Part shown: positions 8,179 through 49,928 of the stretch, in pieces
Layout: the number at the start of each line of letters is the position of its first letter
Numbering within the stretch: the first letter of the stretch is position 1
Assembly: GCA_003137095.1 (NCBI GenBank)
Contig: PLET01000042.1
Location: 22,833-73,765, forward strand
Direction: 5' to 3'
Length of the DNA stretch: 50,933 bases
Source: Gammaproteobacteria bacterium
GTDB taxonomy: Bacteria > Pseudomonadota > Gammaproteobacteria > Steroidobacterales > Steroidobacteraceae
Position numbers and translations under genes: made by a program
The notes under the pieces: generated by a model
What the model saw: the letters and a program-made list of their open reading frames with translations, nothing else
The model's database searches: none
What the model was told of the DNA's origin: nothing

Positions 8179-9092
8179 CTCCGGATCTGATCAAGGCCGC
8201 ACTGCCGCCGGTCTCCGACCGGTTGTTGACCACCTGCTTCCTCGCGTTGCTGCTGCATGGCATCCTCATCCTGGGCATCACCTTCAGTCCGCCGCGCGCT
8301 GCCGGCGGCGATGGGCCGCCCGCCCTGGAGGTCATTTTGGTGAACGACCAGGTTCCGGCGGCGCAGGACAATCACAACGCCCGCTATCTGGCCGAGCGCA
8401 GCCAGCACGGCTCCGGCAACACGCCGCGGGACGAACGCGCCCTGATCCCGAAATCCTCCGCGCTGGCGCTCGACCGACTCGGCGTCGCCAGCGGCGACGG
8501 GGTGGCCGCGCAGCACGACGCCGCCGGCGAGGGCGATGAGGAAATGCTCACGACCCGCTGGCCGGCGGTGAGAATCCAGTACTTCGCGGGCCCCCAAGTG
8601 CCCCACGACACGCCCCAGCTGCCGCTGCTGCTCGAGAAAAAGCCGGATTTGGGCATGACCCCCAACGATGACGGCGTGGCTTTGCGCCTGCGTGGCGAGA
8701 CGAAGGATCAGTTGTGGATCTCCGCCGACACCCGGCAATCCGATCTGGCCGTGTATCTGGACGCGTGGCGACGTAAAGTGGAGCGCGTGGGAACGATGAA
8801 CTTTCCGGACGCGGCGCGCCGCGCGAAACTCTCCGGCACGCCGGTGCTCGAGGTCACGGTGGCCGCCGACGGTAGGCTGACGGACGCAGTTGTGCGCCGC
8901 AGCAGCGGACACCCCGAAATCGACGAGGCTGCCATCCGGATCTTGCGGCTGGCCGCGCCATTCGAACCCTTTCCCCGCGAACTCGGCGCCACGCACGACG
9001 AAATGCGCATCGCCTACGAATGGCAATTCCTGGATGGCGCCGCGCAGGGACCCGGCGTTTTCATTGCGGCACCGGAGGCGGTGGATCCATGA
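8175..9092 (+). CDS. TonB-family energy-transducing protein
   Basis: 305 aa. An N-terminal membrane helix (residues ~15-35, TCFLALLLHGILILGITF) is followed by a long periplasmic linker and a C-terminal TonB domain (residues ~215-300, with PVLEVTVAADGRLTDAVV and the final AYEWQF). TonB proteins use ExbB/ExbD energy to open outer-membrane receptors. No exbBD is adjacent. The position between gshB and yqgE matches the tonB-like gene found there in pseudomonads. GTG 8175 overlaps the gshB stop by four bases. The linker is unusually poor in Pro/Lys repeats for a TonB. The partner receptors are unknown. Confidence 0.85.
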   Translation: MTPDLIKAALPPVSDRLLTTCFLALLLHGILILGITFSPPRAAGGDGPPALEVILVNDQVPAAQDNHNARYLAERSQHGSGNTPRDERALIPKSSALALDRLGVASGDGVAAQHDAAGEGDEEMLTTRWPAVRIQYFAGPQVPHDTPQLPLLLEKKPDLGMTPNDDGVALRLRGETKDQLWISADTRQSDLAVYLDAWRRKVERVGTMNFPDAARRAKLSGTPVLEVTVAADGRLTDAVVRRSSGHPEIDEAAIRILRLAAPFEPFPRELGATHDEMRIAYEWQFLDGAAQGPGVFIAAPEAVDP

Positions 9093-9102
9093 TGCCGGCA
9101 TC

Positions 9103-9666
9103 GTGAGCGAATCGGGCTATCTGACCAACCAGCTGCTGATCGCCATGCCCTCGATGGCGGATCCGAATTTTTCCCAGTCCGTGGCGCTGATCTGCGATCA
9201 CAGCTCGCACGGTGCGCTCGGCCTGATCCTCAACAAACCGCTGCCCATGCGCATGGGCGAGATCTTCGAGCAGCTGGAGATCAGCATCGCCCAAGGGCCG
9301 CTGCGCGAGCGCGAGGTGCTGCGCGGCGGACCGGTTCAGACCGATCGCGGCTTCGTGGTGCATCCGGCCGGCGGAACCTGGGAATCCACCCTCAAGGTGT
9401 CCGACGCCATCCACGTGACCACCTCGCGCGACATCCTGGCGGCCATGGCCCGCGGCGAAGGTCCGACCGAGGCGGTGGTGGCGCTCGGCTATGCGGGCTG
9501 GGGAGAAGGCCAGCTGGAGGACGAGATCCGCGCGAATGCGTGGCTGTCCGCGCCGGTCGACTCGGCCATCATTTTCGATCTGCCGTTCGAGTCGCGCTGG
9601 GAGGCCGCGGCCCGCCTGCTCGGTGTCGAGCTGTCGCGCATCAGCGCGATCAGCGGCAACGCCTGA
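9103..9666 (+). CDS. yqgE: YqgE/AlgH family protein
   Basis: 187 aa, a conserved cytoplasmic protein of uncertain biochemical role (AlgH was linked to alginate control in Pseudomonas). The family N-terminus LTNQLLIAMPSMADPNFSQS and blocks HGALGLILNKPLP, VLRGGPVQTDRGFVVH and GYAGWGEGQLEDEI are clear. GTG 9103 is the only start in frame that matches the family; ATGs just upstream are in another frame. It lies ten bases after the TonB-like gene and its stop overlaps ruvX (TGATG). Confidence 0.93.
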   Translation: MSESGYLTNQLLIAMPSMADPNFSQSVALICDHSSHGALGLILNKPLPMRMGEIFEQLEISIAQGPLREREVLRGGPVQTDRGFVVHPAGGTWESTLKVSDAIHVTTSRDILAAMARGEGPTEAVVALGYAGWGEGQLEDEIRANAWLSAPVDSAIIFDLPFESRWEAAARLLGVELSRISAISGNA

Positions 9667-10109
9667 TGGCCGCCGCCCCGGCGCCACGGCTCATTCTGGC
9701 TTTTGATCTCGGACTGCGGCGCATCGGCGTGGCGCACGGCGACACCCTGACGCGCACGGCCGCGGCGCTCGCGACCCTGCACGGCGGCCCGCAAGGGCCG
9801 CCGTGGGACATGATTCATTCCTTGGTGCGCGATTGGCAGCCCACCCTGGCGGTGGTCGGCCTGCCGTATAATGCCGACGGCTCCGAGAGCGCCATGTCGG
9901 CGGCGGCACGCGGCTTCGCGGCCGAGCTGACCCGCCGCTGCGCCCTGCCCGTGACGCTTGTCGATGAACGCTTTTCGTCGCTGGAAGCGCAGGCGAGGCT
10001 GCGGGAGGCGCGCGAATCCGGGCTGCGCAAGCGGCGGGTGGCCAAGGCCGACGTCGACGGCGCCGCCGCCTGCGTGATCTTGGAGCGCTGGTTCAGTGGA
10101 TCAACCTGA
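9666..10109 (+). CDS. ruvX: RuvX/YqgF RNase H-fold nuclease
   Basis: 147 aa. This family is implicated in 5'-end processing of pre-16S rRNA and annotated as a putative Holliday-junction resolvase. RNase H-fold signatures: LILAFDLGLRRIGVA at the N-terminus, VVGLPYNADGSES, the acidic VDERFSS and a C-terminal KADVDGAAACVILE. ATG 9666 overlaps the yqgE stop by one base. The yqgE-ruvX pair is conserved across gammaproteobacteria. Confidence 0.94.
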   Translation: MAAAPAPRLILAFDLGLRRIGVAHGDTLTRTAAALATLHGGPQGPPWDMIHSLVRDWQPTLAVVGLPYNADGSESAMSAAARGFAAELTRRCALPVTLVDERFSSLEAQARLREARESGLRKRRVAKADVDGAAACVILERWFSGST

Positions 10110-10116
10110 GGCGCAC

Positions 10117-11081
<965 letters not shown>

Positions 11082-11085
<4 letters not shown>

Positions 11086-12029
11086 GCCTCGCGCCCGACA
11101 CGGCCGGCGGCGGCGCGGTGGCGCCGGCGGCGCATCGCGGGACGATATTCGTCGAGGACGATGCCGTGGTGCTGCGGCAGACCGCGTTCGCGGCCGGCCA
11201 GTTCATCATCCGCATCCAGGCGCCGCGCTGCGCCGCGGCCGCCATGCCCGGATCGTTCGCGCATGTGCGCTGCGACGAGTCGCTGCCCATGCGCCGGCCG
11301 CTGTCCATCATGCGCGCCCATGCCGCCGAGGGCTGGATCGAGATCCTGTACAAGGTCCACGGCCACGGCCTCGAGCTGCTGTCGCGGCGCAAGCCGGGCG
11401 AACACCTGGCGCTCATGGGGCCGATCGGCGTCGGCTTCAGCCTGCACGCCGGCCGGCCCCGCGGCCTGTTGATCGGCGGCGGCGTCGGCATTCCGCCCAT
11501 GGTGTTTCTCGCCGAGACGCTGGCGGGCCGCGCACCCTGGCGGCCGCTGGCGCTGTTCGGTTCGGAGATTCCCTTCCCGTTCAAGTCCCGGCCCTCCACC
11601 ATCCTGGTGCCGGGAATGCCGGCGGGTGCGATCGCTTCCATGCCCCTGCTCGAGGAATGGGGCGTCGCCAGCCGCCTGGCGAGCTGCGCGGGCTACGCCG
11701 GCTGCTACGACGGCTTCGTCACCGCACTCGCGGCCGACTATCTGCTTACGCTGAATGCCGCGGCGCTCGCCGAGGTGGAGCTGTTCGCCTGCGGCCCGAC
11801 GCCGATGCTGCAAGCGACCGCACGGCTCGCACGGCAGTTCAAGGTCCCCGCGCAGGTGTGCCTGGAGGAGTTCATGGCCTGCGCGGTGGGCGGCTGCGCC
11901 GGTTGCGCCGTGGCGGTGCACACGCCCGCCGGGCCGGCCATGAAGCGCGTCTGCGTGGACGGTCCGGTGTTCGACGCGGCCGCGGTGTTCTTTGCCGGAC
12001 CCGGCTCAGCGGACGGCGAGCAGGAATAG
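11082..12029 (+). CDS. PyrK-like dihydroorotate dehydrogenase electron-transfer subunit
   Basis: 315 aa, ferredoxin-reductase fold with a C-terminal [2Fe-2S] domain. Seen: FAD-binding RRPLSI, NAD-binding GLLIGGGVGIPPMVF, and four cysteines at 267, 272, 275 and 291 (C-x4-C-x2-C-x15-C) followed by VDGPVF. That spacing and ending are typical of PyrK, which passes electrons from PyrD class 1B to NAD. GTG 11082 overlaps the pyrB stop by four bases, so it is coupled to pyrimidine synthesis. No pyrD lies in the window. Its 3' end overlaps tam tail-to-tail by 24 bp. It could serve another oxidoreductase. Confidence 0.82.
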
Positions 12030-12776
12030 CCGCGGGAAGGGCAGCAGCACGCCGCCACCGGGCAGCGGCGGCAGTATGCGCCGCACGCCGGCGAGGTAGC
12101 GCTCGAGATAGGCGCCCCGCTCAGCCTGCTCGAGAGGCTCGAGGAAGGGCCGCAGCCCGCTGCCCTTGAACCAGTCGACCACGTCGCCGGGGCCGCCTGC
12201 GAGCGCGTGAAAATAGGTGGTGCGCCAGATCTCCACCTGCGTGCACCGCACCCGCAGCATCGCGTAATAGCCCTCGGCGGTGGCCGGCGCCGTGCGCTGC
12301 CGCGCGGCGCCGGCGAGCTTGGCCGCCCATGGTCCGTCGAGCGCGATGTCGCGCATCAGCCGCTGCACCGGCTCATCCAGATTGTCGGGCATCTGCACGG
12401 CGAGGCAGCCGCCCGGCGCGAGCCTGCCGGTGAGCGCCGGCAGCAAGGTGGCATGGTCCGGCAGCCACTGCAGCACGGCGTTGGCAAGCAGCAGGTCGAA
12501 CGGTCCGGGGTCGCCCCAGGATTCGAGGTCTGCCAGTTCAAAACGCAGTCCGGGCAGGCGGCTGCGGGCCGCTTCGATCATGTCGGGCGAGCTGTCCAAG
12601 CCGGCCACCGCGGCGCCGGGAAAGCGCGCGGCCAGAAGCTCGGTGGAATTGCCCGGACCGCAGCCGAGATCCATGGCGTTGCGCACGGCGATGGGCGGCA
12701 ACGCCGCCAGCAGATCGCGGATCGGGCGGTTGCGCTCAGCCTCGAACAGAGAATATTGTGCCGCCGACCACGTCAT
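12006..12776 (-). CDS. tam: trans-aconitate 2-methyltransferase
   Basis: 256 aa, against 252 in E. coli. SAM-dependent enzyme methylating trans-aconitate, an inhibitor by-product of the citric acid cycle, in the cytoplasm. Class I methyltransferase motif DLGCGPGNSTELL, acidic GLDSSPDMIEAA, LLANAVLQWLPDH and MPDNLDEP, then IWRTTYFH and the terminal LPFPRLFL, all in the order of E. coli Tam. ATG 12776 overlaps the psd stop (ATGA), so the two genes form one minus-strand unit. Confidence 0.93.
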   Translation of the reverse strand: MTWSAAQYSLFEAERNRPIRDLLAALPPIAVRNAMDLGCGPGNSTELLAARFPGAAVAGLDSSPDMIEAARSRLPGLRFELADLESWGDPGPFDLLLANAVLQWLPDHATLLPALTGRLAPGGCLAVQMPDNLDEPVQRLMRDIALDGPWAAKLAGAARQRTAPATAEGYYAMLRVRCTQVEIWRTTYFHALAGGPGDVVDWFKGSGLRPFLEPLEQAERGAYLERYLAGVRRILPPLPGGGVLLPFPRLFLLAVR

Positions 12777-13693
12777 CGACTAAAACCCCCGCGCCAGGCG
12801 TCGCCCCAGGCGTCGCCGGAAGCGCCCGCCGGCAATTGCATCAATCCGCGTCCCATGTTGATGCGGGTGCCCGGCAGCCCGCTGCACAGTGACACGCCGG
12901 CGGGTGCGAACACAATGACGGTGGAACCGTGCTCGAACCAGCCGAGCTCCTCGCCCTTGCACGCCGCGACGTCGCAGGGGATCACGTGCGGCCCCCGATA
13001 GCGCAGATGCAGCCGCACGTCCAGAAAGCGCAGACGGATGCTGGCCACCAGGATGGCCGCCACCGGCACCAGGGTGATCAGGCGGCCGCAGGCCAGCCGG
13101 CAGCGGATGATGGCGCGTTCGTTCTTGCAGAACAGCCGCTCGATCCGCTGCAGGGCGATCGGATTGACATTCCAGGTGTCGCCGGAGATGTAGTTGACCT
13201 GTTCGATGCGGCAGTCGGCCGGCGCATGAAACCGATGGTACATGCCCGAGGTCAACCTCAGGGTCGCATAGCTGCCGCCGCGGTAATATCGTACCAGCGC
13301 CGCGTCCCCCAGCAGATCCATCAAGGGATAGGGAAATCCCTTGGCCTGCAGCACCGCGCCCTCGGTCACCGTGCCGCAGGCACCCACGATCGCATCGCAG
13401 GGACTCGCGAGCAGCGCCGGATCCCGGTCGATGGGCCGCGCGCCCTCGGCCAGTTCGCGGGTGAAGCAGTCGTGCAGGCTCGAGAAGCGTGCCCGCCGGG
13501 AATCGCTCAGATCCAGTTCGGTGAACAGCCGCCACACCGCGATGCCGGCGCGGCACAGCCACGGCTGCTCCAGCCGGCTGAGCCACCCCATGAGTCGCGT
13601 CAGCGCGCGCCGCGGGATGCGGTTGGTCAGCAGGAAATTCAGGTCCTCCTGCAGCAGCCGCAGGATCGCCGGGCGCCGCGTCCGCCCGGTCAT
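12773..13693 (-). CDS. psd: phosphatidylserine decarboxylase proenzyme
   Basis: Membrane-associated pyruvoyl enzyme converting phosphatidylserine to phosphatidylethanolamine. 306 aa. Family blocks: FTRELAEGARPID, SPCDAIVGACGTV, QAKGFPYPLMDLLG, YHRFHAPADCRIE and GDTWNVNP. The C-terminal self-cleavage site reads HGST, where most homologues have LGST; Gly-Ser, between which cleavage occurs, is kept. A TTG at 13714 could add seven residues; I used ATG 13693. Tam follows with overlapping codons, and only 44 bp separate psd from the divergent aminotransferase. Confidence 0.92.
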   Translation of the reverse strand: MTGRTRRPAILRLLQEDLNFLLTNRIPRRALTRLMGWLSRLEQPWLCRAGIAVWRLFTELDLSDSRRARFSSLHDCFTRELAEGARPIDRDPALLASPCDAIVGACGTVTEGAVLQAKGFPYPLMDLLGDAALVRYYRGGSYATLRLTSGMYHRFHAPADCRIEQVNYISGDTWNVNPIALQRIERLFCKNERAIIRCRLACGRLITLVPVAAILVASIRLRFLDVRLHLRYRGPHVIPCDVAACKGEELGWFEHGSTVIVFAPAGVSLCSGLPGTRINMGRGLMQLPAGASGDAWGDAWRGGFSR

Positions 13694-13737
13694 CGAAGTG
13701 TCATCGCCATGCAATACAGTGGCCGCCGAGGAAACAG

Positions 13738-15438
13738 GTGAGCACGTCCCCGATCATCGCGGTATTGGCGTCCGTCCTGGGCGCTGCCGCCCTGGTGTTC
13801 ATGCTGCGCGCACTGAGGTTGCGGCTGCAGCTGTCGGCTGCCAAACATCGATCGCTCGCCGGGCACTCGCGCATGGCACGGCGCGTTGCGCGGCTGGTCC
13901 CGTACTACGAATACGGCGAGGCGGAATTCTTCCGGGCGGATGCCGCACCGGAGGAGGTCGCGGCGGCGCGGCGGACCGGCTTCATGCGCCTGGCCGCGCT
14001 GTATGCCGGTCGCTTCGCCGGCAGCGCGGCGCTCACCGCCGAGGCTGCGGACGGCATCTCCGACCTGCAATTCACCTCCCGCTACCGCGTGCCGTTCCAA
14101 TTCAGCCGTCATGTCCGCGAGCATCTGCAGGGCGGCGCCTTCGTCGCCGCCTCCGCCGGGGTGGAAGTGGTGGATCTCGACGGCAACCGGTTCTACGATC
14201 TGACCGGCTCCTACGGCGTCAACGTCTTCGGCTACGATTTCTACAAGGACTGCATCGCCCGCGGCGCAGAGCGCGTGCGCGATCTGGGCCCGGTGCTCGG
14301 CGCCTATCATCCGCTGGTCGCCGGCAATGCGCGCCGGCTGCTCGAGATATCCGGCATGCAGGAGGTCTCGTTCCACATGTCCGGCACCGAGGCCGTGATG
14401 CAGGCGGTGCGCCTCGCGCGCTATCATACCGGCCGCCGCCATTTGGTGCGCTTCTGCGGCGCCTACCACGGCTGGTGGGGCGACGTGCAGCCGGGTGTCG
14501 GCAATCCGCAGACCGCCCGCGACACCTACACCCTGAAGGACATGGACCAGGCCGCGCTGCGGGTGCTGCACGGCCGGCGCGACATCGCCTGCGTGCTGGT
14601 CAATCCCCTGCAGGCCCTGCATCCGAATCATGGCGCCCCGGGCGATTCCACCCTGGTCGACAGCGGGCGCGGCGCGCATTTCGACCGCGAAGCCTATGCC
14701 GTGTGGCTGCGCAAGCTGCGCGCCGCGTGCACGGCGCGCAATATCGTGCTGATATTCGACGAGGTGTTCGTCGGCTTTCGCCTCGCGGCGGGCGGCGCCC
14801 AGGAGTTCTTCGGCGTGCGCGCCGACATGGTCACCTACGGCAAGACCGTCGCCGGCGGACTGCCGGTCGGCGTGCTGTGCGGATCGCACGCCAACATGCG
14901 GCGATATCGCGAGGACCGGCCGGCCGACGTGTGCTTCGCGCGCGGCACCTTCAATGCACATCCTTATGTGATGGGTGCAATGGCCGAATTCCTCGGGCGT
15001 CTCGAGACTGCCGCGGTGCGCGCGCTGTATGCGGATCAGGACGCGCTGTGGAACGCGCGTGCCGCCTCGCTCAATGCGCGCCTGCGCGATGCCGGGCTGC
15101 CGCTGCGGCTGGCCAACCTGTGCTCGATCTGGACCATCGACTACCTCAATCCGTCCCGGTACAACTGGATGCTGCAATATTATCTGCGGGCGGCCGGCCT
15201 CGCCCTCAGCTGGGTGGGGACCGGCCGCCTGATCTTCAGCCTCAATTTCACCGACGCCGATTTCGCCGCGGTCGCCGACCGGATCGTGTCGGCGGCTCTC
15301 GCCATGCAGCGCGACGGCTGGTGGTGGGCACCGCCCGCGCTCACCAACCGTTCCATCCGGCGGCGCGTGCTCATGGAGATGATTCAGGCGCGCTGCTCGC
15401 CGCCCATCGGATCGATGAGTTCACCGCGCAGCAGGTGA
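13738..15438 (+). CDS. membrane-anchored class III aminotransferase (GSA-like)
   Basis: 566 aa PLP enzyme. An N-terminal membrane helix (residues ~5-22) is followed by a linker and a fold-type I class III aminotransferase domain (~120-540). Seen: HMSGTEAVMQAVRLAR, FCGAYHGWW, acidic IFDEVFVGFR and the PLP lysine in TYGKTVAGGLPVG (Lys369). It resembles glutamate-1-semialdehyde aminomutase and the aminotransferase domains embedded in lipopeptide and polyketide synthases. The membrane anchor is not normal for a heme-pathway enzyme. GTG 13738 has GAGG upstream. Neighbours are psd/tam and membrane genes, suggesting a lipid-linked substrate (inference). The 3' end overlaps the next gene antisense by 55 bp. 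Confidence 0.85.
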   Translation: MSTSPIIAVLASVLGAAALVFMLRALRLRLQLSAAKHRSLAGHSRMARRVARLVPYYEYGEAEFFRADAAPEEVAAARRTGFMRLAALYAGRFAGSAALTAEAADGISDLQFTSRYRVPFQFSRHVREHLQGGAFVAASAGVEVVDLDGNRFYDLTGSYGVNVFGYDFYKDCIARGAERVRDLGPVLGAYHPLVAGNARRLLEISGMQEVSFHMSGTEAVMQAVRLARYHTGRRHLVRFCGAYHGWWGDVQPGVGNPQTARDTYTLKDMDQAALRVLHGRRDIACVLVNPLQALHPNHGAPGDSTLVDSGRGAHFDREAYAVWLRKLRAACTARNIVLIFDEVFVGFRLAAGGAQEFFGVRADMVTYGKTVAGGLPVGVLCGSHANMRRYREDRPADVCFARGTFNAHPYVMGAMAEFLGRLETAAVRALYADQDALWNARAASLNARLRDAGLPLRLANLCSIWTIDYLNPSRYNWMLQYYLRAAGLALSWVGTGRLIFSLNFTDADFAAVADRIVSAALAMQRDGWWWAPPALTNRSIRRRVLMEMIQARCSPPIGSMSSPRSR

Positions 15439-15992
15439 AGCGGCGCCTTGCAGTAGAGCTTCACGTCGTGGAACGGGTCGGTGATGATCTTGGTCAGCCA
15501 CACCAGTCCGGTCTGCACGTCCTTGATGAAGAACAACTGCACGGTGCGGAACAGCAGGCCCCCGCAGCCGATGATCAGCCATATGAGGCCCATGTGCCGC
15601 ACGAACTGTGCGCCGTCCGCGTGCGGCGCGAACATGCCGAAGAACGTCGGGTCGAGCCACAGTACCGCGGGCGAAGCCGCCCAGACGGCGAGCAGCACGA
15701 TCTTGCGGCGCAGGTTGTAGCCGACCTTGATCTGCTCCTTGTACTCGTGCGTCGCCTGATTGACAGCGTCATAACCCTTGGGCTCGAAGAAGAAATGCCC
15801 GGCCTGGCGGCTGACCATGGCCACCAGCCAGGCGATCAGCGCGGCGGCCGCGGGGTTGCTGAACACCATCGCGTACGCGGCCAGGAAGCTCAATGCGCTG
15901 AGCAGGTGCAGTGACTGGTTGATCCGGCTGTGATGATAGTAACGATGGTCATCCCAACGTTGGGTCTGGAGCATTCGCCAAAAGCTGTGCAT
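15384..15992 (-). CDS. multi-pass membrane protein of unknown function
   Basis: 202 aa. Hydrophobic stretches lie at residues ~28-60, ~98-118 and ~130-155. A His-rich N-terminal region (DDHRYYHHSRINQSLH), the motif RQAGHFFFEPKGYD and a VNQATHEYKEQIKVGYN segment suggest metal-binding histidines near the membrane face. The spacing of the His and Glu residues loosely recalls Mpo1/DUF962 lipid-metabolism proteins, but I cannot confirm this. ATG 15992 has AGGA six bases upstream. It converges with and overlaps the aminotransferase by 55 bp. Confidence 0.75.
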   Translation of the reverse strand: MHSFWRMLQTQRWDDHRYYHHSRINQSLHLLSALSFLAAYAMVFSNPAAAALIAWLVAMVSRQAGHFFFEPKGYDAVNQATHEYKEQIKVGYNLRRKIVLLAVWAASPAVLWLDPTFFGMFAPHADGAQFVRHMGLIWLIIGCGGLLFRTVQLFFIKDVQTGLVWLTKIITDPFHDVKLYCKAPLHLLRGELIDPMGGEQRA

Positions 15993-16133
15993 GGGGGTTC
16001 CTGGGGTGGGTTGAGAAATCGTGCATGAAGCAAATATAGGATTTCCATTGCAGGCGCATGACAGCGCGCGCCGTTTCTTGCGGCCGCATGCCCCGTTCAT
16101 CGAATCTTCATGCACCGCTGTCACAGTGCGCCG

Positions 16134-17195
16134 ATGAGAATCGCCATCGTCACGGACGCCTGGCACCCGCAGACCAACGGCGTGGTGAACACGCTGTCGC
16201 AGACCGCCGCCTGGCTCGGACGCTTCGGGCACTGCGTGAGCATGGTCACGCCGCAGGATTTCCGCAGCATCCCCTGCCCGACCTATCCGGAGATACGGCT
16301 GTCGCTGCGGCCCTACGGCCCGCTGCGCGGGCGGCTGCTCGAGTTCGCTCCGCAGGCGCTGCACATCGCCACCGAAGGGCCGCTCGGACTTGCGGCGCGG
16401 CGATTCTGCAGGCGCCATGGCTGGCGCTTCACGACCTCCTATCACACCCAGTTCCCGCAATACCTGCGGGCGCGATTTCCGATCCCGGTCGTGCTTTCCT
16501 ACCGGCTGCTGCGCTGGTTTCACGGCGCAGCGGCGCGCTGCATGGTGAGCACCCCGAGCGTGCGGCGCCAGCTCGCGGCGCGCGGCTTCGACAACCTGGC
16601 GGTGTGGCGACGTGGGGTGGATACGGAGCTGTTCAGGCCGCGCGGCAAGGAGTTCCTGTCATTGCCGCGGCCCGTGGCGGCCTATGTCGGGCGCCTGGCG
16701 GTGGAGAAGAACATCGACGCCTTCCTCGCGATGCCCTGGAGCGGCAGCAAGCTGGTGATCGGCGACGGTCCGGAGCGGGCGCGCCTCGAGGCGCAATATC
16801 CGCGGGCATGTTACGCGGGCTTCCGCTTCGGCGAGGACCTCGCCGCGCACCTGGCCGCGGCCGACGTCATGGTGTTTCCGAGCCTGACCGACACCTTCGG
16901 GCTGGTGAATCTCGAAGCGCTGGCGTGCGGCGTGCCGGTGGCCGCCTTTCCCGTGGCCGGACCGATCGATGTGATACGCGACGGTGTGACCGGCGCGCTC
17001 GATGAGGATCTGGCAAGCGCGGCGCGGCGCGCACTGGCGCTCGAAGCCGGCGCGTGCCGGCAGTACGCCATGGGCTTCGGCTGGGAGACGTGTACGCGTG
17101 AATTCGAGGGCAATCTCGTGCCCTGCCGGGCCGGGCAGTCCGAGCCGGTCGAAGCGCCGGGGCTGCCGGTCCCGGGAAGCCTCAGCCGAAGTTGA
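16134..17195 (+). CDS. GT4-family glycosyltransferase
   Basis: 353 aa, GT-B fold. N-terminal MRIAIVTDAWHPQTNGVVN matches the mannosyltransferase/sulfoquinovosyltransferase-like GT4 group; TTSYHTQFPQYL, YVGRLAVEKNID and the nucleotide-sugar-binding FPSLTDTFGLVNLEALACG are clear. Likely transfers a sugar to a lipid or glycan acceptor at the inner membrane; the donor and acceptor cannot be read from sequence. ATG 16134 fits the family start; an ATG at 16110 would add eight residues. Its end overlaps the third retraction ATPase tail-to-tail by 14 bp. Confidence 0.9.
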   Translation: MRIAIVTDAWHPQTNGVVNTLSQTAAWLGRFGHCVSMVTPQDFRSIPCPTYPEIRLSLRPYGPLRGRLLEFAPQALHIATEGPLGLAARRFCRRHGWRFTTSYHTQFPQYLRARFPIPVVLSYRLLRWFHGAAARCMVSTPSVRRQLAARGFDNLAVWRRGVDTELFRPRGKEFLSLPRPVAAYVGRLAVEKNIDAFLAMPWSGSKLVIGDGPERARLEAQYPRACYAGFRFGEDLAAHLAAADVMVFPSLTDTFGLVNLEALACGVPVAAFPVAGPIDVIRDGVTGALDEDLASAARRALALEAGACRQYAMGFGWETCTREFEGNLVPCRAGQSEPVEAPGLPVPGSLSRS

Positions 17196-22798: not shown

Positions 22799-22833
22799 TC
22801 GCGCGCACTCCCCGCGTGCAACTTTTTTTGAAA

Positions 22834-43864: not shown

Positions 43865-45337
43865 TCAGGGCCGCCGGGTGCGCAGCAATTCGCGCGCGCG
43901 TCCGATGTCGGGCGCAAGCGGACGATCGTCGCGATAATGCGCGGCCCGCGTGCGCACGGCGCGCCACAGCCGCACGGTGGCGGGTGCCGGCGCCGGCCCC
44001 GTCTGCAGGTCATACGCCTGCGCCGCCGCGAGCAATTCGATGGCGAGCACGGTTTCGGCGTTGTCGATGATGTGCAGCAGTTTCAATGCCGCCGGCGTGG
44101 CATGCGCGAGGTGATCTTCCTGCAGACCCGAGGTGACGCCGCCGTCGAGGCTCGCCGGCGCGGCCAGGCGGCGATTTTCGGCCACCAGCGAGACCGCCGT
44201 GTACTGTGCCAGCATGAAGCCCGACGCCGCCGCGCCGTCCGCGAGGAAGGCCGGCAGATTGCTCACCAGCGGATTGACCAGCCGGTCGATGCGCCGCTCC
44301 GCCATCGCCGCCAATTGCGCGACCGCCGTTCCGAGCGCATCGGCGCTCAGGCCGATCGCCGTGCCCACCGCGTGTGCTTCGGATATCACCCGCGGCGCCT
44401 GCGGGGTGCCGAGGACGACGGGATTGTCGCTCACCGAGGCAAGCTCTCGGTCCAGCACGGCCTCGCAGACCTCGAATACGTCGCGTACCGCGCCGTGTAC
44501 CTGGGGAATGGCGCGCAGGCTGAGCGCGTCCTGGGTGCGGCGACCCGCGCCCGCCGCCAGCAGCGCGCTGCCCTCGAGCAGCGCGCGCAATCCGGCGCCG
44601 ACCCGCGCAACCCCGGGCGATGACCGCAGCGCAAGCGCCTCGGCGTCGAACGCGGCCGGCTGGCGGTGCAGGTTTTCGACGGTCATGGCCGCGACGCCAT
44701 CGGCCCATTCCAGGAGCCGCTCCAGGCGCAGCAGCGCCACCGTGAACAGGCCGGTCGCGCAGGGCGTGCCATTGACCAGGCTGAGGCCCTCCTTGGCCTC
44801 CAGCAGCAGCGGCTCGAGCCCGATCGCGCGCAGCGCCTCGAGCGCCGGGCAGCGCTCGCCGCGCACGCGCGCGTGTCCCGCTCCCAACAGCACCGACGCA
44901 ATGTGCGCCATGTGGCTCAGATACCCCACCGAGCCGCCCGCCGGCACCTCCGGCACGCAATCCCGGTTGAGCAGTGCGATCAGCGCCTCCACCACCTCAA
45001 GACGCACGCCCGAGTAGCCGTGCGCCAGGTTGTTGACGGCGGCCGCGATGATGGCCCGGGTCTCGAGTACGCCGAGCAGCGGCCCCGCGCCGGCGGCGTG
45101 GCTCATCACGATGTTGTGCGACAGCTGCTGCTGATGCGATCGATCCACGATCACCTCGCACAGGGCGCCCACGCCGGTGTTGACCCCGTAGGCGCGGATC
45201 CCCCGCTCGACGATCGATTCCACCAGGGAGCGCGCGTGCCGGATGCGGCTCTCGGCCCGCGCCGAGAGCGCAACTGCACTGCCCTCGGCGATTGCGCCGG
45301 CCTCGCGCCAGGCGAAGGTGGTGTCGAGCGTGATCAC
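43865..45337 (-). CDS. histidine ammonia-lyase-like protein lacking the MIO motif
   Basis: 490 aa aromatic-amino-acid lyase fold. AYGVNTGVG (Tyr), LVNGTPCATG (Asn), LVAENRR (Glu) and GLQEDHLAH follow the family order. But the Ala-Ser-Gly that cyclises into the MIO electrophile is absent: after GSVG (residues 135-138) comes YLSHMAH, three residues shorter than usual. The active-site Tyr of QDPYSLR is also Leu here (QDALSLR). So it is unlikely to be a normal deaminase. GTG 45337 overlaps the ABC ATPase stop (GTGA), so it belongs to the amino-acid transporter operon. Confidence 0.88.
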   Translation of the reverse strand: MITLDTTFAWREAGAIAEGSAVALSARAESRIRHARSLVESIVERGIRAYGVNTGVGALCEVIVDRSHQQQLSHNIVMSHAAGAGPLLGVLETRAIIAAAVNNLAHGYSGVRLEVVEALIALLNRDCVPEVPAGGSVGYLSHMAHIASVLLGAGHARVRGERCPALEALRAIGLEPLLLEAKEGLSLVNGTPCATGLFTVALLRLERLLEWADGVAAMTVENLHRQPAAFDAEALALRSSPGVARVGAGLRALLEGSALLAAGAGRRTQDALSLRAIPQVHGAVRDVFEVCEAVLDRELASVSDNPVVLGTPQAPRVISEAHAVGTAIGLSADALGTAVAQLAAMAERRIDRLVNPLVSNLPAFLADGAAASGFMLAQYTAVSLVAENRRLAAPASLDGGVTSGLQEDHLAHATPAALKLLHIIDNAETVLAIELLAAAQAYDLQTGPAPAPATVRLWRAVRTRAAHYRDDRPLAPDIGRARELLRTRRP

Positions 45338-46092
45338 CGGTGTCCGGAGATGAATTGGCGGAACCGCTCCGTCGGCGGGTCCCGAAACAGCTCATCGGGC
45401 GGCCCCTCGGCCTCCACCTGACCCCGGTGCAGGAACATGACCCGGTTCGACACGCTGCGCGCAAAGCTCATTTCATGCGTGACCACCAGCATGGTGCGGC
45501 CCTCCTCGGCCAGCGCGCGCATCACCCGCAGCACGTCGCCCACCAATTCGGGGTCGAGCGCCGAGGTCGGTTCGTCGAACAGCAGCGCCTGCGGGCGCAT
45601 CGCCAGCGCGCGCGCGATCGCCGCACGCTGTTGCTGGCCACCGGACAGGTGCGCCGGATAATGATCACGCTTGTCCGCGATGCCGACCTTTTCCAGGAGC
45701 GCCTCGGCCTCGGCAATGCACTCGGCGCGGGCGCGCTTCTGCACGTGCACGGGTCCTTCGATCAGGTTCTCCAGTATCGTCAGGTGCGACCACAGATTGA
45801 AGCTTTGAAACACCATGGCGAGCTCGCCGCGCATGCGGTCGATCTGGCGCCGCAGGCGCGTGGAGCGCGCCGCGCGGCCGGCCCCGAGCACGATGCGCTC
45901 GCCGGCAACGGTGATCTCGCCCGCATCCGGCGTCTCCAGCAGGTTTATGCAGCGCAAAAAGGTGCTCTTGCCCGAACCGCTCGAGCCCAGGATCGAGATC
46001 ACGTCGCCACGGTTCGCCGCCACCGAGACCCCCTTGAGCACCTCCTGCTGGCCAAAGCGCTTGTGGATGTTCCTGGCGCTCACGATGTTCAT
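45334..46092 (-). CDS. polar amino-acid ABC transporter ATPase (HisP/GlnQ-like)
   Basis: 252 aa. Walker A GSSGSGKST, Q-loop FQSFNLWSHL, signature LSGGQQQR, Walker B ALLFDEPTSALD and the switch His in VVTHEM. The long insertion after Walker A and VFQSFNLWSH place it in the HisP group. ATG 46092 overlaps the permease stop (ATGA). It energises import by the two permeases upstream. Confidence 0.95.
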   Translation of the reverse strand: MNIVSARNIHKRFGQQEVLKGVSVAANRGDVISILGSSGSGKSTFLRCINLLETPDAGEITVAGERIVLGAGRAARSTRLRRQIDRMRGELAMVFQSFNLWSHLTILENLIEGPVHVQKRARAECIAEAEALLEKVGIADKRDHYPAHLSGGQQQRAAIARALAMRPQALLFDEPTSALDPELVGDVLRVMRALAEEGRTMLVVTHEMSFARSVSNRVMFLHRGQVEAEGPPDELFRDPPTERFRQFISGHR

Positions 46093-46823
46093 GGCGCGGC
46101 CGCCCCGGCCCGCCTCGCGGCCGGCGCCGCTGCGCGCAGCTGCGGCGACAGGCGGTATTCGAGCACGGCGATCAGGCGCAGGATCGCGAAATTCAGCAAC
46201 AGATAGATGGCCGCGGCGCACATGAACACCTCCAGGGTCTTGTAGGTCGTGGAAATGATGCGCAGCGCGACGCCGGTGACCTCCCAGACGGTGACCAGGC
46301 TGGCCAGTGACGTCGACTTCACCATCAGCACGATCTCGGTCGAATACGCCGGCAGCGCCTGGCGCAAAGCGAGCGGTGCGATGATCCGCCGCAGCAGCAG
46401 CCAGCCGGACATGCCGCAGGCGCGCCCGGCCTCGATCTGCTGCACCGGCACCGCGAGCAGCGCGCCGCGGAAGATTTCCGCGGTGTACGCCGCCGTGCAC
46501 AACGCGAGCGCGATGACCGCACAGGCGAACGGATTGCGCAGCACCGGCCACAGCATGCCGTGTCGCACGGCGGGAAACTGCGCGAGGCCGTAGAACACCA
46601 GGAACATCTGGATCAGCAGCGGCGAGCCGCGGAATACGAACACGTAGGCGCGCACCAGTCGCGCGATCCACGGCGCCCCGCGCAGGCGTACCCAGGTCAG
46701 GCCCGCGGCGAGCACGCCGCCGAGCGCAATGGAGGCCAAAAACAGCCCGAGAGTGACCGGCAGCGCCGCCAGCAGCTCACCCAGGGTGGCGGCGAGGAAG
46801 CCGAATTCGCCGGCGGACGGCAA
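46089..46823 (-). CDS. polar amino-acid ABC transporter permease (HisM-like)
   Basis: 244 aa with five helices. EAGRACGMSGWLLLRRIIAP is the EAA loop contacting the ATPase; FRGSPLLIQMFLVFYG is the HisM/HisQ signature. TTG 46823 directly follows the stop of the fused SBP-permease gene (TGATTG) and I see no better start. Confidence 0.9.
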   Translation of the reverse strand: MPSAGEFGFLAATLGELLAALPVTLGLFLASIALGGVLAAGLTWVRLRGAPWIARLVRAYVFVFRGSPLLIQMFLVFYGLAQFPAVRHGMLWPVLRNPFACAVIALALCTAAYTAEIFRGALLAVPVQQIEAGRACGMSGWLLLRRIIAPLALRQALPAYSTEIVLMVKSTSLASLVTVWEVTGVALRIISTTYKTLEVFMCAAAIYLLLNFAILRLIAVLEYRLSPQLRAAAPAARRAGAAAP

Positions 46824-48533
46824 TCAGATCCCGCCCGGGGAGGCGCGCAGGGTCCTGCCGACGCGCAGCTCCGCGTGTTCGAACGCCCGGCCGGAAAGTC
46901 CCGTCATCGCCAGGTACAGCGCGCCGCCCACCAGATAGAACAAAAAATAGCGGTGGGTGGAGCCGGCGCCCACCTCCGTGGTGCGCATGATCTCGGCCAC
47001 GCCGGTGACCGAGATCAACGCCGAATCCTTGAGCGTCAGCTGCACCACGTTGCCCAATCCCGGCAGCGCGAACCTCAGTACCTGGGGCACCACGATGCGC
47101 CGCAGCCGCATCGCGGTGCGCATGCCGATCGAGCGAGCCGCCTCGATTTCGCCGCGGGATATGGCGAGATAGCCACCGCGATACACCTCGGCCTGGTAGG
47201 CCCCCGAAATCACCCCGACGGCCAGGATGCCGGCCGCCAGCGACGGCATCCCGGCGACTGTGCCGGCGCCCAGCGCCAGGGCGACGCGTGTCACCAGGGT
47301 CGAGCCGCCGAAGAAAATCAGGTAGATGACCAGCAGTTCGGGAACGCCGCGAAACAGGGTGGAATAAATCTCACCGGCCCCGCGCAGCGCCGCGTTGCCG
47401 GAGAGCCGCGCCGCGGCGATCAGGCCGCCCAGCACGGCGCCCACGCCGAGCGCCGCCGCCGTCACCACGGCCGTCATGAGTGCCGAGAGCAACAGGGCGC
47501 GGCCCCAGCCGCCGGCGCCGAACCCGAAGATCTGCAGGACATCCGGCAGTGCCTCGCCCGGCGCAGCATGTCCGGACACACCATCGCCGGGCGGCGCTTC
47601 GGCCGGCTGCGCGCCGCCGCGCGGCGCGGCGGGCTCGCCACTGCCCACGGCGGCGGCCGGCGGCAGCTGATACGGCGTGACGTCGATCTTGAGCCATTTC
47701 TCGCTCAAGCGCCTGACGGTGCCGTCGGCGATGGCGGCGGCCACGGCCGCGTCGAATGCCGCCTTCAATTGCACGTCGTCGCGGCGAAAGCCGAAGCCCT
47801 CGCCCTCCCCCCAGATGGCTCCGCCGATCAACGGGCCGCTGAGCGTCAGTTCGCGCTCATCCGCGTTGGCGAGAGCGGTCTTGAAATAAGTGGCATCGTC
47901 GAATGCCACGTCGGCCCGCCCGGCGAGCACGTCCAGATCGTGCTCGGCCGAGGACTTGTATTCGCGCACCGTCGCGATGTCGCCGAAATTCAGGTAGATG
48001 AAGCGCGCGTAGATCGAGGCCGCCTGGATCGCAATGGTCCTGCCGCGCAGGGCGGCGCGTAGTTCCTGTACGGCCGGATCGTCGGGTGCGCTTTCCCGGC
48101 TCAAGGAGAGCGTGCGGCCGGACAGCGGCAGTCGCCCCAGCGCCGAGCCGCGCAAGGCCACGAAGGTCGCGGCGGTCCGCGCATACGGCCGCGAAAAGGC
48201 GAGGATGAGCCTGCGCTCCTCGGTGATCGACAGGGCGTCCATCAGCACGTCGACCTTGCCGGCCTGCAGGCTGGCGATCATGCCGTTCCAATCCTGCGCG
48301 ACCAGCCGGCACTCGAGGCGCATGCGCGTGCACAGATCATGGACGAGTTCCACCTCGAAGCCGTCCAGCACGCCGTCCGCACGGGTCAGATTCCAGGGGG
48401 CGTAGTCGCCCTCGGTCGCGATGATGACGGCGCGCCCGCCCTGCCCCTGCGCGCAGAACGGCAGGAGGCCGGCCAGGGCGAGCATCAGGCAAGCCGCCGC
48501 ACCCGCTGCGGTCGATGTGGTGCGTCGCGGCAA
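46824..48533 (-). CDS. fused amino-acid binding protein and ABC permease (HisJ-HisQ type)
   Basis: 569 aa. Signal peptide at 1-31 (CLMLALAGLLPFCAQG), then a type 3 solute-binding domain ~35-265 (ATEGDYAPWNLT, DWNGMIASLQAGKVDVLMDA, FGFRRDD), a Pro/Gly/Ala linker ~275-320, then a permease domain with about five helices and EAA loop EAARSIGMRTAMRLRRIVVP. Binding protein and permease are usually separate genes. TTG 48533 fits the signal peptide with GAGAG upstream; TTG 48584 would lie upstream of a probable promoter. Confidence 0.9.
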   Translation of the reverse strand: MPRRTTSTAAGAAACLMLALAGLLPFCAQGQGGRAVIIATEGDYAPWNLTRADGVLDGFEVELVHDLCTRMRLECRLVAQDWNGMIASLQAGKVDVLMDALSITEERRLILAFSRPYARTAATFVALRGSALGRLPLSGRTLSLSRESAPDDPAVQELRAALRGRTIAIQAASIYARFIYLNFGDIATVREYKSSAEHDLDVLAGRADVAFDDATYFKTALANADERELTLSGPLIGGAIWGEGEGFGFRRDDVQLKAAFDAAVAAAIADGTVRRLSEKWLKIDVTPYQLPPAAAVGSGEPAAPRGGAQPAEAPPGDGVSGHAAPGEALPDVLQIFGFGAGGWGRALLLSALMTAVVTAAALGVGAVLGGLIAAARLSGNAALRGAGEIYSTLFRGVPELLVIYLIFFGGSTLVTRVALALGAGTVAGMPSLAAGILAVGVISGAYQAEVYRGGYLAISRGEIEAARSIGMRTAMRLRRIVVPQVLRFALPGLGNVVQLTLKDSALISVTGVAEIMRTTEVGAGSTHRYFLFYLVGGALYLAMTGLSGRAFEHAELRVGRTLRASPGGI

Positions 48534-48561
48534 GCAACTCTCGATTGAAGACGGGACGGTC

Positions 48562-48567
48562 AGTATA
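48562..48567 (-). promoter_or_regulatory. -10 box of the amino-acid transporter operon
   Basis: TATACT preceded by TT on the minus strand, 28 bases upstream of TTG 48533. No good -35 at 16-18 bp. The position argues against the longer start at 48584. Confidence 0.4.
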
Positions 48568-48599
48568 AACCGCCGGCCCGCCAACGCGCCGCCGCGGCT

Positions 48600-49796
48600 T
48601 CAGTCCTCGTGCCGATTGCCGAGGAAGGTCAGGAGGAACACCGCCGAGCCCGCGGTGAACACCACCGGCAGCATGGCCGTGAGCACTTGCGCCGCCGACC
48701 AGCCGGCCAGGCGCATCTGTCCGGCCATCAGCGGTCCGATGATCGACCCGAAGCGCCCGACGGCCACCGCCGCGCCGGCGCCTGCCGCGCGCATCTGCGC
48801 CGGATACAGCAGCGGCGTCAAACCGTACAGGGAGAATTGCGCACCCAGCACCAGAAAGCCCGCCGCCGCGCACAGCACCACGATCAGATGAATCGGGCTG
48901 GCCAACCCCAGGGCGAACACCACCGCCGTCAGCGCGCCGTAGGTCATGAACAGTGCCCAGCGAAAGCCGATGCGGTCGACCACCCAGCCGAGCACCAGGG
49001 CGCCGACGATGCCGGTGAGATTGAAGGCCAGCGCCGCCGACGCGCCGTCGCCGGGCGAGAATCCCTTGGCGACCACCAAGCTCGGCAGCCAATTGAGCAT
49101 CAAGTACAGGAACAGGATGGTCAGCAGGCTGGCGAGCCACAGCAGCACGGTGGGCGCCGCCTGACCCTTGCCGAACAACGCCGTGTGAATCCGATGGGTA
49201 GCGGCAGGCGCCCGCGCCGGCCGGGTCTCCGCCAGCAGGAACACGATCAGCGGCACCACCGCCAGCGGCAGCGCGCCGCCGATGGCGAATATCACGCGCC
49301 AGTCGACATGATTGCCCATGAGCTTCGCCAGCAAGGCGACGGCGGCGCCTCCCGCCGGCAATCCGCAGAAGATCGCGCTGGTGGTCGCCGCGCGGCGCCG
49401 CGGCGGGCTGATCTCGCTGGCGATCGCGATCAGGTTCGGCAGCGCCCCGCCGAAGCCCAAGCCGGTGACGAATCGCGCCACCAGCAGCACCGAGTAGTCG
49501 TGGCACAGTGCCGTCCACAGGGAGCACACGCCGAAGCCGATCACCGACGCGAGCAGTACCGGCTTGCGTCCGACGCGGTCCGACAGCCAGCCGCCCGCGA
49601 ATGCACCCAGCACCAGTCCTACCATCGCCGCGCTCGCGACCCATCCCTGCTGGCCGCCGTTCATTCCCAGGGCGTGAATCAGTTGCGGCGCCGACACCCC
49701 GAAGGCTTGGATGTCGAATCCCTCGAGCGCGGTGATGACGCAGCAAACGGCGATGGTGCCGCCCACCCGGGAATGTCCGGCATCTGTGTTTTGCAT
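48600..49796 (-). CDS. AAHS-family MFS transporter
   Basis: 398 aa, about 12 helices. N-terminal helix ITALEGFDIQAFGVSAP carries the Asp-rich motif of aromatic acid:H+ symporters; GGWLSDRVGRKPVL is the MFS loop 2-3 signature. Probably imports an aromatic or related acid by proton symport. ATG 49796 has AGGAG upstream. It lies behind the amino-acid transporter operon on the same strand; no catabolic genes are near. Confidence 0.88.
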   Translation of the reverse strand: MQNTDAGHSRVGGTIAVCCVITALEGFDIQAFGVSAPQLIHALGMNGGQQGWVASAAMVGLVLGAFAGGWLSDRVGRKPVLLASVIGFGVCSLWTALCHDYSVLLVARFVTGLGFGGALPNLIAIASEISPPRRRAATTSAIFCGLPAGGAAVALLAKLMGNHVDWRVIFAIGGALPLAVVPLIVFLLAETRPARAPAATHRIHTALFGKGQAAPTVLLWLASLLTILFLYLMLNWLPSLVVAKGFSPGDGASAALAFNLTGIVGALVLGWVVDRIGFRWALFMTYGALTAVVFALGLASPIHLIVVLCAAAGFLVLGAQFSLYGLTPLLYPAQMRAAGAGAAVAVGRFGSIIGPLMAGQMRLAGWSAAQVLTAMLPVVFTAGSAVFLLTFLGNRHED

Positions 49797-49928
49797 CAAG
49801 GCTCCTGGGGCGCACACGGCCTGCGCAGGTGATCGGCAGCGGCACCGCAAACTTCAATGCCTCCGCGCCTCAATTCCAATGTTCCCCAGCCGATATCCAC
49901 TGGGTCGGATTACGCGCTGGGCGGCAAG

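Follow-up and report, generated by a model that had tools for sequence, protein, structure and literature searches.

Histidine ammonia-lyase (HutH, EC 4.3.1.3) carries 4-methylideneimidazol-5-one (MIO), the known catalytic electrophile for histidine deamination. Ergothionase has the same fold, lacks MIO and eliminates trimethylamine from ergothioneine. A trimethylammonium group keeps its charge permanently and departs as a neutral amine, which makes the MIO electrophile unnecessary. Ergothionase is the precedent for a MIO-less lyase (PMC13405746). In Pseudomonas fluorescens SBW25 the gene order is hutU-hutTu-hutXWV-hutH1-hutH; the accessible passages of a review report hutH1 as dispensable for growth on histidine, call HutH1 a histidase and nowhere mention a missing MIO (PMC8871633). 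The gene described here lies on contig PLET01000042.1 of assembly GCA_003137095.1, from a gammaproteobacterium of the Steroidobacteraceae, in a stretch of 50,933 nucleotides (positions 22,833 to 73,765) that is referred to as the window. It encodes a MIO-less histidine ammonia-lyase homologue, named HX here. HX is tentatively proposed to be an active, MIO-independent lyase that would take up the degradation of an imported quaternary-ammonium histidine, with hercynine as the likeliest substrate, by splitting off trimethylamine and so providing urocanate for HutU. The gene and its altered active site are located as follows.

43865-45337, minus strand: HX, MIO-less histidine ammonia-lyase homologue; single open frame of 490 amino acids with a GTG start; PF00221.
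44909-44935, minus strand: former MIO site, G135-M143, GSVGYLSHM; codons GGC TCG GTG GGG TAT CTG AGC CAC ATG.
44522-44524, minus strand: codon of Leu272, at the position of the HutH catalytic Tyr280; coordinates calculated from the HX frame.

Residues 15-462 of HX match Pfam PF00221 at 469.6 bits (cut-off 27.3), which places the protein in the aromatic amino acid lyase superfamily, while its 459.9 bits against the NCBIfam hutH equivalog model stay below the cut-off of 539.15. HX shares the fold of P. putida HutH (Protein Data Bank, PDB, entry 1b8f), about 40% identity and six pocket residues, and differs from it at the catalytic centre. In the alignment GSVGYLSHMAH of HX stands opposite GSVGASGDLAPLAH of HutH, so that Ala-Ser-Gly (ASG) is deleted and the following Asp has become Tyr (Y139). 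HX reads QDALSLR where HutH reads QDPYSLR, leaving Leu272 at the Tyr280 position, and the stretch around F329 is changed from ISGGNFHAE to ISEAHAVGT with loss of the Phe. Formation of MIO from a different tripeptide is judged unlikely, as the site retains no X-Ser-Gly. An AlphaFold2 model of the monomer, computed from an alignment of 44 sequences with 7 canonical HutH among them, has a mean predicted local distance difference test score of 92.2 (74 for the block with the MIO loop); the complete active site is formed by three chains of the tetramer. Its closest solved fold is the P. putida enzyme, with a template modelling score of 0.92, and the score against Treponema denticola ergothionase is 0.90. 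The original prediction, made from the letters of the window, had described a histidase homologue lacking both ASG and the Tyr of QDPYSLR; the codons, the PF00221 match and the HutH alignment bear it out, and the model aligned to HutH agrees with the expected fold.

The altered site is common to a clade. The unbiased test searched 398 genomes of the phylum with the complete protein and gave a match of any kind in 169 genomes and an HX gene, at 47% identity or more, in 23, the gene of the window included; the other matches listed reach at most 43%. All 22 further members of the upper group (47-67% reported identity) are without ASG, and ASG is present in all seven inspected matches at 41-43% identity (L147-L153). 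Among 337 genomes around genome G543 the clade occurs in 8, always with GS[VA]GY (G543 and G309 were already in the 398-genome search). The 121 genomes of family f171 contain it in 9, of which G597 and G344 were known before, and all 8 inspected loci of this family (L252-L259) have GSVGYL[TA]H. A further sample consists of the best 80 of 247 candidate loci and is biased, having been seeded in part with YLSHMAHI; GSVGYLSHMAHI is found in 80/80 of these loci, including L019 and L048.

When 149 PF00221 rows are aligned, 103 show GS[VA]GY[LI] with the same three-residue gap, 43 show GASGD and three, all from the window's own genome (L003-L005), show neither. The 103 clade rows comprise the window, the 80 loci of the biased sample and the 22 of the 398-genome search, and cover alpha-, beta- and gammaproteobacteria. 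None has ASG, and Y139, H142 and Leu272 are each at 100%. Residues Y50, H80, N189, Q269, R275 and E407 of HX are on the list of 98%-invariant positions; we take them to be the counterparts of the HutH pocket residues Y53, H83, N195, Q277, R283 and E414. Positions conserved in the clade that differ from HutH, as represented by 41 rows picked for QDPY out of the 43 with GASGD, include Y139, H142, L272, H281, R285 and Y379. On this pattern of residues the HX site may be read as rebuilt, not decayed. The 37 clade rows sampled for a tree of 59 rows are monophyletic with support 98/96. The ratio of nonsynonymous to synonymous substitution rates (dN/dS) is 0.07-0.14 in 8/8 pairs, indicating purifying selection, and is somewhat lower, 0.03-0.07, in three canonical pairs; a pseudogene or relaxed selection is rejected at values of about 0.1. 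A sequencing error whose correction would restore ASG, named beforehand as a way in which the prediction could fail, is excluded in practice, as is a frameshift, because the same ASG-less site occurs in 103/103 clade rows. The suggested search for histidase homologues without ASG and for their operons has thus led to a conserved clade, mostly with an importer upstream.

In four genomes of one genus (G597, G990, G1087 and G1024, estimated to be 99-100% complete) hutF faces a hutU-BCCT-HX-hutI unit, with hutC and hutD also present; hutG lies in two of these stretches, L183 and L278, and was not found in the other two (L276, L277). Canonical HutH was not found in these genomes by a PF00221 scan. 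Their other PF00221 genes have GSVGASGDLTPLSY with QDRYSLR and resemble phenylalanine or tyrosine ammonia-lyases (PAL/TAL), and G597 also has an ergothionase-like gene. HX replaces HutH in these hut clusters and would therefore most simply make urocanate; it is probably the supplier of urocanate in the four genomes. In G1010, a member of this genus, HX and canonical HutH belong to separate hut clusters (L279 and L280, respectively), and canonical HutH is also present in G1077, G1017 and G1085 of f171. These arrangements bear on the unlikely alternative that HX is a non-catalytic protein, which would sense imported histidine or urocanate or would form mixed tetramers with HutH to tune HutH or the importer. 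Such a role would suit a protein that has lost MIO and Tyr280 and kept the pocket residues, and tandem pairs of HX and canonical HutH do occur (L134, L138-L141). However, the four near-complete genomes have no canonical HutH to regulate, the HX cluster of G1010 stands apart from its HutH cluster, and the MIO site has gained invariant residues of its own, which suggests that selection favoured the replacement. The first description had allowed for a binding, a regulatory or an altered-chemistry role; the last is favoured now, and a purely regulatory or binding function is weakened by the same four genomes and by G1010.

HX also takes the HutH slot directly before hutU in L073, L215, L216 and L220. 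In the Caballeronia loci L073 and L076 it lies between a polar amino acid transport (PAAT) type importer and hutU-hutD-hutI-hutF-hutG, and the canonical HutH of G297, the genome of L073, is on a different contig. The Pseudomonas-type loci L172 and L176-L178 have hutU, an NCS1 permease, an OpuAC-type ABC importer and HX, followed by HutH, hutI and hutG; in L171, L174 and L175 HutH is on the other side of hutU. The order in L172 and L176-L178 is that reported around HutH1, from which the window locus differs, and by this match SBW25 HutH1 is taken as a member of the HX clade. The HutH slot, the hut clusters without another HutH and the conserved pocket would all fit an enzyme that deaminates histidine by some other mechanism and simply replaces HutH. 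This is improbable. MIO is the known electrophile for histidine deamination, betaine-type carriers adjoin HX, and canonical HutH co-occurs in 31 of the 35 HX genomes checked, that is, in 27 of 28 clade genomes scanned for PF00221 (the one without being G597) and in 4 of 7 further genomes of f171. Histidine would be an odd substrate for HX because HutH coexists in most genomes and hutH1 is reported to be dispensable on histidine. In 30/30 genomes scanned from the 80-locus sample the top PF00221 match is not HX but a protein with GASGD, although in G289 and G301 this match is PAL/TAL-like and HutH was seen in fragments only. Of 31 genomes checked for urocanase, the window's own included, 30 have it; it was not found in G289.

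The importers suggest what the substrate may be. Transporters and hut genes were mapped by tblastn, with reference genes identified by Pfam, in 101 loci (the 80 of the biased sample, 20 further ones and the window). An importer on the same strand lies within 4.5 kb upstream of HX in 95/101 loci, being of PAAT type in 84, of OpuAC type in 9 and of the BCCT family in 2. Further betaine-type cases are the OpuAC type in L215 and L216 and BCCT in 6 more clusters of f171. In some loci the gene directly upstream of HX thus encodes an OpuA/ProU-type ABC importer or a BCCT carrier; the window importer is instead of the polar-amino-acid type. The OpuAC binding proteins (13 sequences from 11 loci) have 8 invariant Trp, five of which align with Trp of 7yle, a binding protein labelled glycine-betaine/proline, in the main matched stretch. 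The original prediction of a MIO-less homologue coupled to an importer was right and holds generally. Its suggestion that the protein may serve the imported amino acid is upheld as to the coupling, and 'amino acid' may be too narrow, several lineages having betaine-type importers that point to a quaternary-ammonium histidine.

In the window, the genes upstream of HX are the following.

45334-46107, minus strand: ABC importer ATPase, PAAT/HisP-like; PF00005; best NCBIfam match HisP at 333 bits, cut-off 466.
46089-46823, minus strand: ABC importer permease; PF00528; ArtM/HisM-like, below the cut-offs.
46824-48584, minus strand: substrate-binding protein (SBP_bac_3, residues 53-299) fused to a permease (residues 384-559); start listed as TTG, its true position uncertain.
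48600-49850, minus strand: MFS transporter, MhpT-like; PF07690; NF008586 at 389.8 bits, cut-off 410.

The ATPase is 71% identical to a P. xenovorans homologue, and its gene shares 4 bases with HX (45334-45337), the overlap with the importer operon described at the outset. The substrate-binding part has octopine- and nopaline-binding proteins as its closest PDB entries. It forms one frame of 586 codons with the permease (46824-48584(-)); in inspected relatives, for example L025 and L042, the two are separate genes. The MFS gene (48600-49850(-)) ends 15 bases upstream of this frame and, judging by the spacing, is probably the first gene of the operon, one gene earlier than in the range first proposed. 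The probable operon order is then MFS transporter, fused binding protein and permease, permease, ATPase and HX. The closest relatives of HX by identity (68-69%) are in L006, L007 and L008, which have two flanking gene families in common with the window (39661- and 40730+).

T. denticola ergothionase (6s7j) resembles HX in its PF00221 fold, the absence of ASG and a Leu at the Tyr280 position (QDPLSFR). It differs in being only 25% identical by structural alignment and in a shorter deletion at the site (SSIGEGDITTLSH). HX might itself be a proteobacterial ergothionase that converts ergothioneine to thiourocanate, and could be identical with the enzyme of Burkholderia sp. HME13; this is improbable too. 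The shared pattern, that of a trimethylamine lyase without MIO that carries Leu in place of Tyr280, agrees with it, as do the ergothionase activity reported in Burkholderia in the accessible part of PMC13405746 and the makeup of the 80-locus sample, most of which is Paraburkholderia, Burkholderia and Caballeronia. Ordinary hutU and hutI beside HX in many loci speak against it, and so does G597, where the cluster that holds HX also holds a different PF00221 gene with 6s7j as its best PDB match (268 bits). This gene (L183:5013-6545(-)) and its counterpart in a hut cluster of G1010 (L280:17083-18615(+)) encode a MIO-altered protein with GSLGAADLAQL and QDPLSYR. The three additional ASG-less PF00221 genes of the window's own genome, L003 and L004 (G000:C105) and L005 (G000:C80), read G[TA][LVI]GE-[GA]D. 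The closest PDB entry to L003 is again 6s7j, at 143.6 bits with the next at 88.6, and both L003 and L004 have TonB-dependent receptors and an MFS gene nearby. A Caballeronia locus (L160:5172-13308(+)) has a second hut-like operon with a divergent urocanase (41%), an amidohydrolase, a HutH-like lyase (50%) and a PAAT importer; this lyase was considered as a Burkholderia-type ergothionase and rejected for its normal MIO site.

Under the proposal made here the importer would bring in a histidine with a quaternary ammonium group, the likeliest being histidine betaine (hercynine), HX would eliminate trimethylamine from it without MIO, and the urocanate formed would pass to HutU. In L040, from an uncultured proteobacterium, HX is followed by a LysR gene and, at 8573-12711(+), by genes for a methyltransferase of the MttB family and for a DAO-GCV_T protein, and in L168 a DAO-family gene is directly downstream of HX. 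These neighbours, the betaine-type importers and the ergothionase precedent together point to a trimethylated histidine.

A number of observations weigh against this proposal. Most importers (84/101, that of the window among them) are of the polar-amino-acid type and able to carry ordinary amino acids. Their binding proteins keep, in 21/21 aligned rows, an Asp at what we take to be the position where amino-acid-binding proteins hold the alpha-ammonium group. No importer of the three types was found upstream of HX in 6/101 loci (L006-L008, L040, L170, L181), and only 34/101 loci have hut genes in the examined flank. In the window's own genome hutU, hutI, hutF and HutH are all on contigs other than that of HX, and the frequent presence of HutH beside HX noted above counts here as well. 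The MttB-family protein of L040 is below the cut-off of the trimethylamine model (303 against 525 bits). HutXWV takes part in histidine uptake, according to the accessible passages of PMC8871633. HX is nearer to histidases than to ergothionase (7tqr 283, 1b8f 267.2 and 6s7j 160.3 bits), so that ergothionase is not its closest kin, and the 59-row tree omits the T. denticola enzyme. In the printed alignment ergothionase appears to lack a counterpart of N195, which HX retains; together with the closer kinship of HX to HutH, this means that MIO may have been lost separately in the two. In a different draw from the class, comprising 274 genomes, only the window's own genome matched a DNA pattern for GSVGYL[ST]HM, which would miss variants such as GSAGY and YIVHG; for that draw the low count stands against calling the clade widespread.

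The importer association was compared with that of canonical HutH in 20 genomes without HX, using tblastn within 5 kb and references taken from the transporters of HX loci. An importer is found in 28 of 33 HX clusters (PAAT 9, OpuAC type 11, BCCT 8; the 33 exclude L219, within a stretch already counted, and L280, the G1010 cluster with canonical HutH) and in 0/20 clusters of canonical HutH, by a test blind to divergent transporters. The control L309, with canonical HutH and no HX by protein search, contains a complete OpuAC-type ABC importer that was missed (13539-17076(+)); it has a CBS-domain ATPase and lies 3 to 6.6 kb from HutH, which ends at 10.5 kb. In the control L323 an NMT1-type ABC importer stands just before canonical HutH. 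Both cases weigh slightly against the proposal, and the contrast between HX and canonical HutH is suggestive only, because the test missed these divergent transporters.

The gene itself is already known as Pseudomonas HutH1, and ergothionase is an established example of a MIO-less lyase. The apparently new finding is the union of HutH1-type proteins in a single clade without MIO, whose importers are exchangeable and whose members are able to stand in hut clusters without HutH. This was set against the accessible parts of PMC8871633, PMC8069873, PMC9732360, PMC11089744, PMC12143400, PMC12772324, PMC13405746 and PMC4586437. Among the matches listed from the open-licence literature there was no MIO-less histidase or histidase pseudoenzyme, which is no proof of absence, and no hercynine lyase in titles or the beginnings of abstracts; nothing usable was found there on Sinorhizobium meliloti hutXWV with betaine. 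The MIO-less protein of L172 (9154-10662(+)) passes NCBIfam NF006871 and TIGR01225, with 544.9 bits against the hutH equivalog cut-off of 539.15, and automatic annotation therefore hides a MIO-less member; L146 stays below the cut-off with 494.3 bits. Plasmid genes of Rhizobium and Burkholderia that are 60-67% identical to HX of the window, and related to it by this overall identity, carry the name histidine ammonia-lyase.

Predictions of histidine degradation and results from hut knock-outs that count HX-type genes as histidase need care. It is conceivable, though held with some reserve, that this proteobacterial clade of MIO-free proteins, annotated as histidase, is a second entrance to histidine degradation, which would turn hercynine into urocanate and trimethylamine and would have exchanged its importer families. 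If so, bacteria could channel histidine betaine into central metabolism, it would be clear why Pseudomonas can do without HutH1, and a source of trimethylamine would be added. HX would then join ergothionase as the second enzyme to work without MIO in a family that is defined by it.

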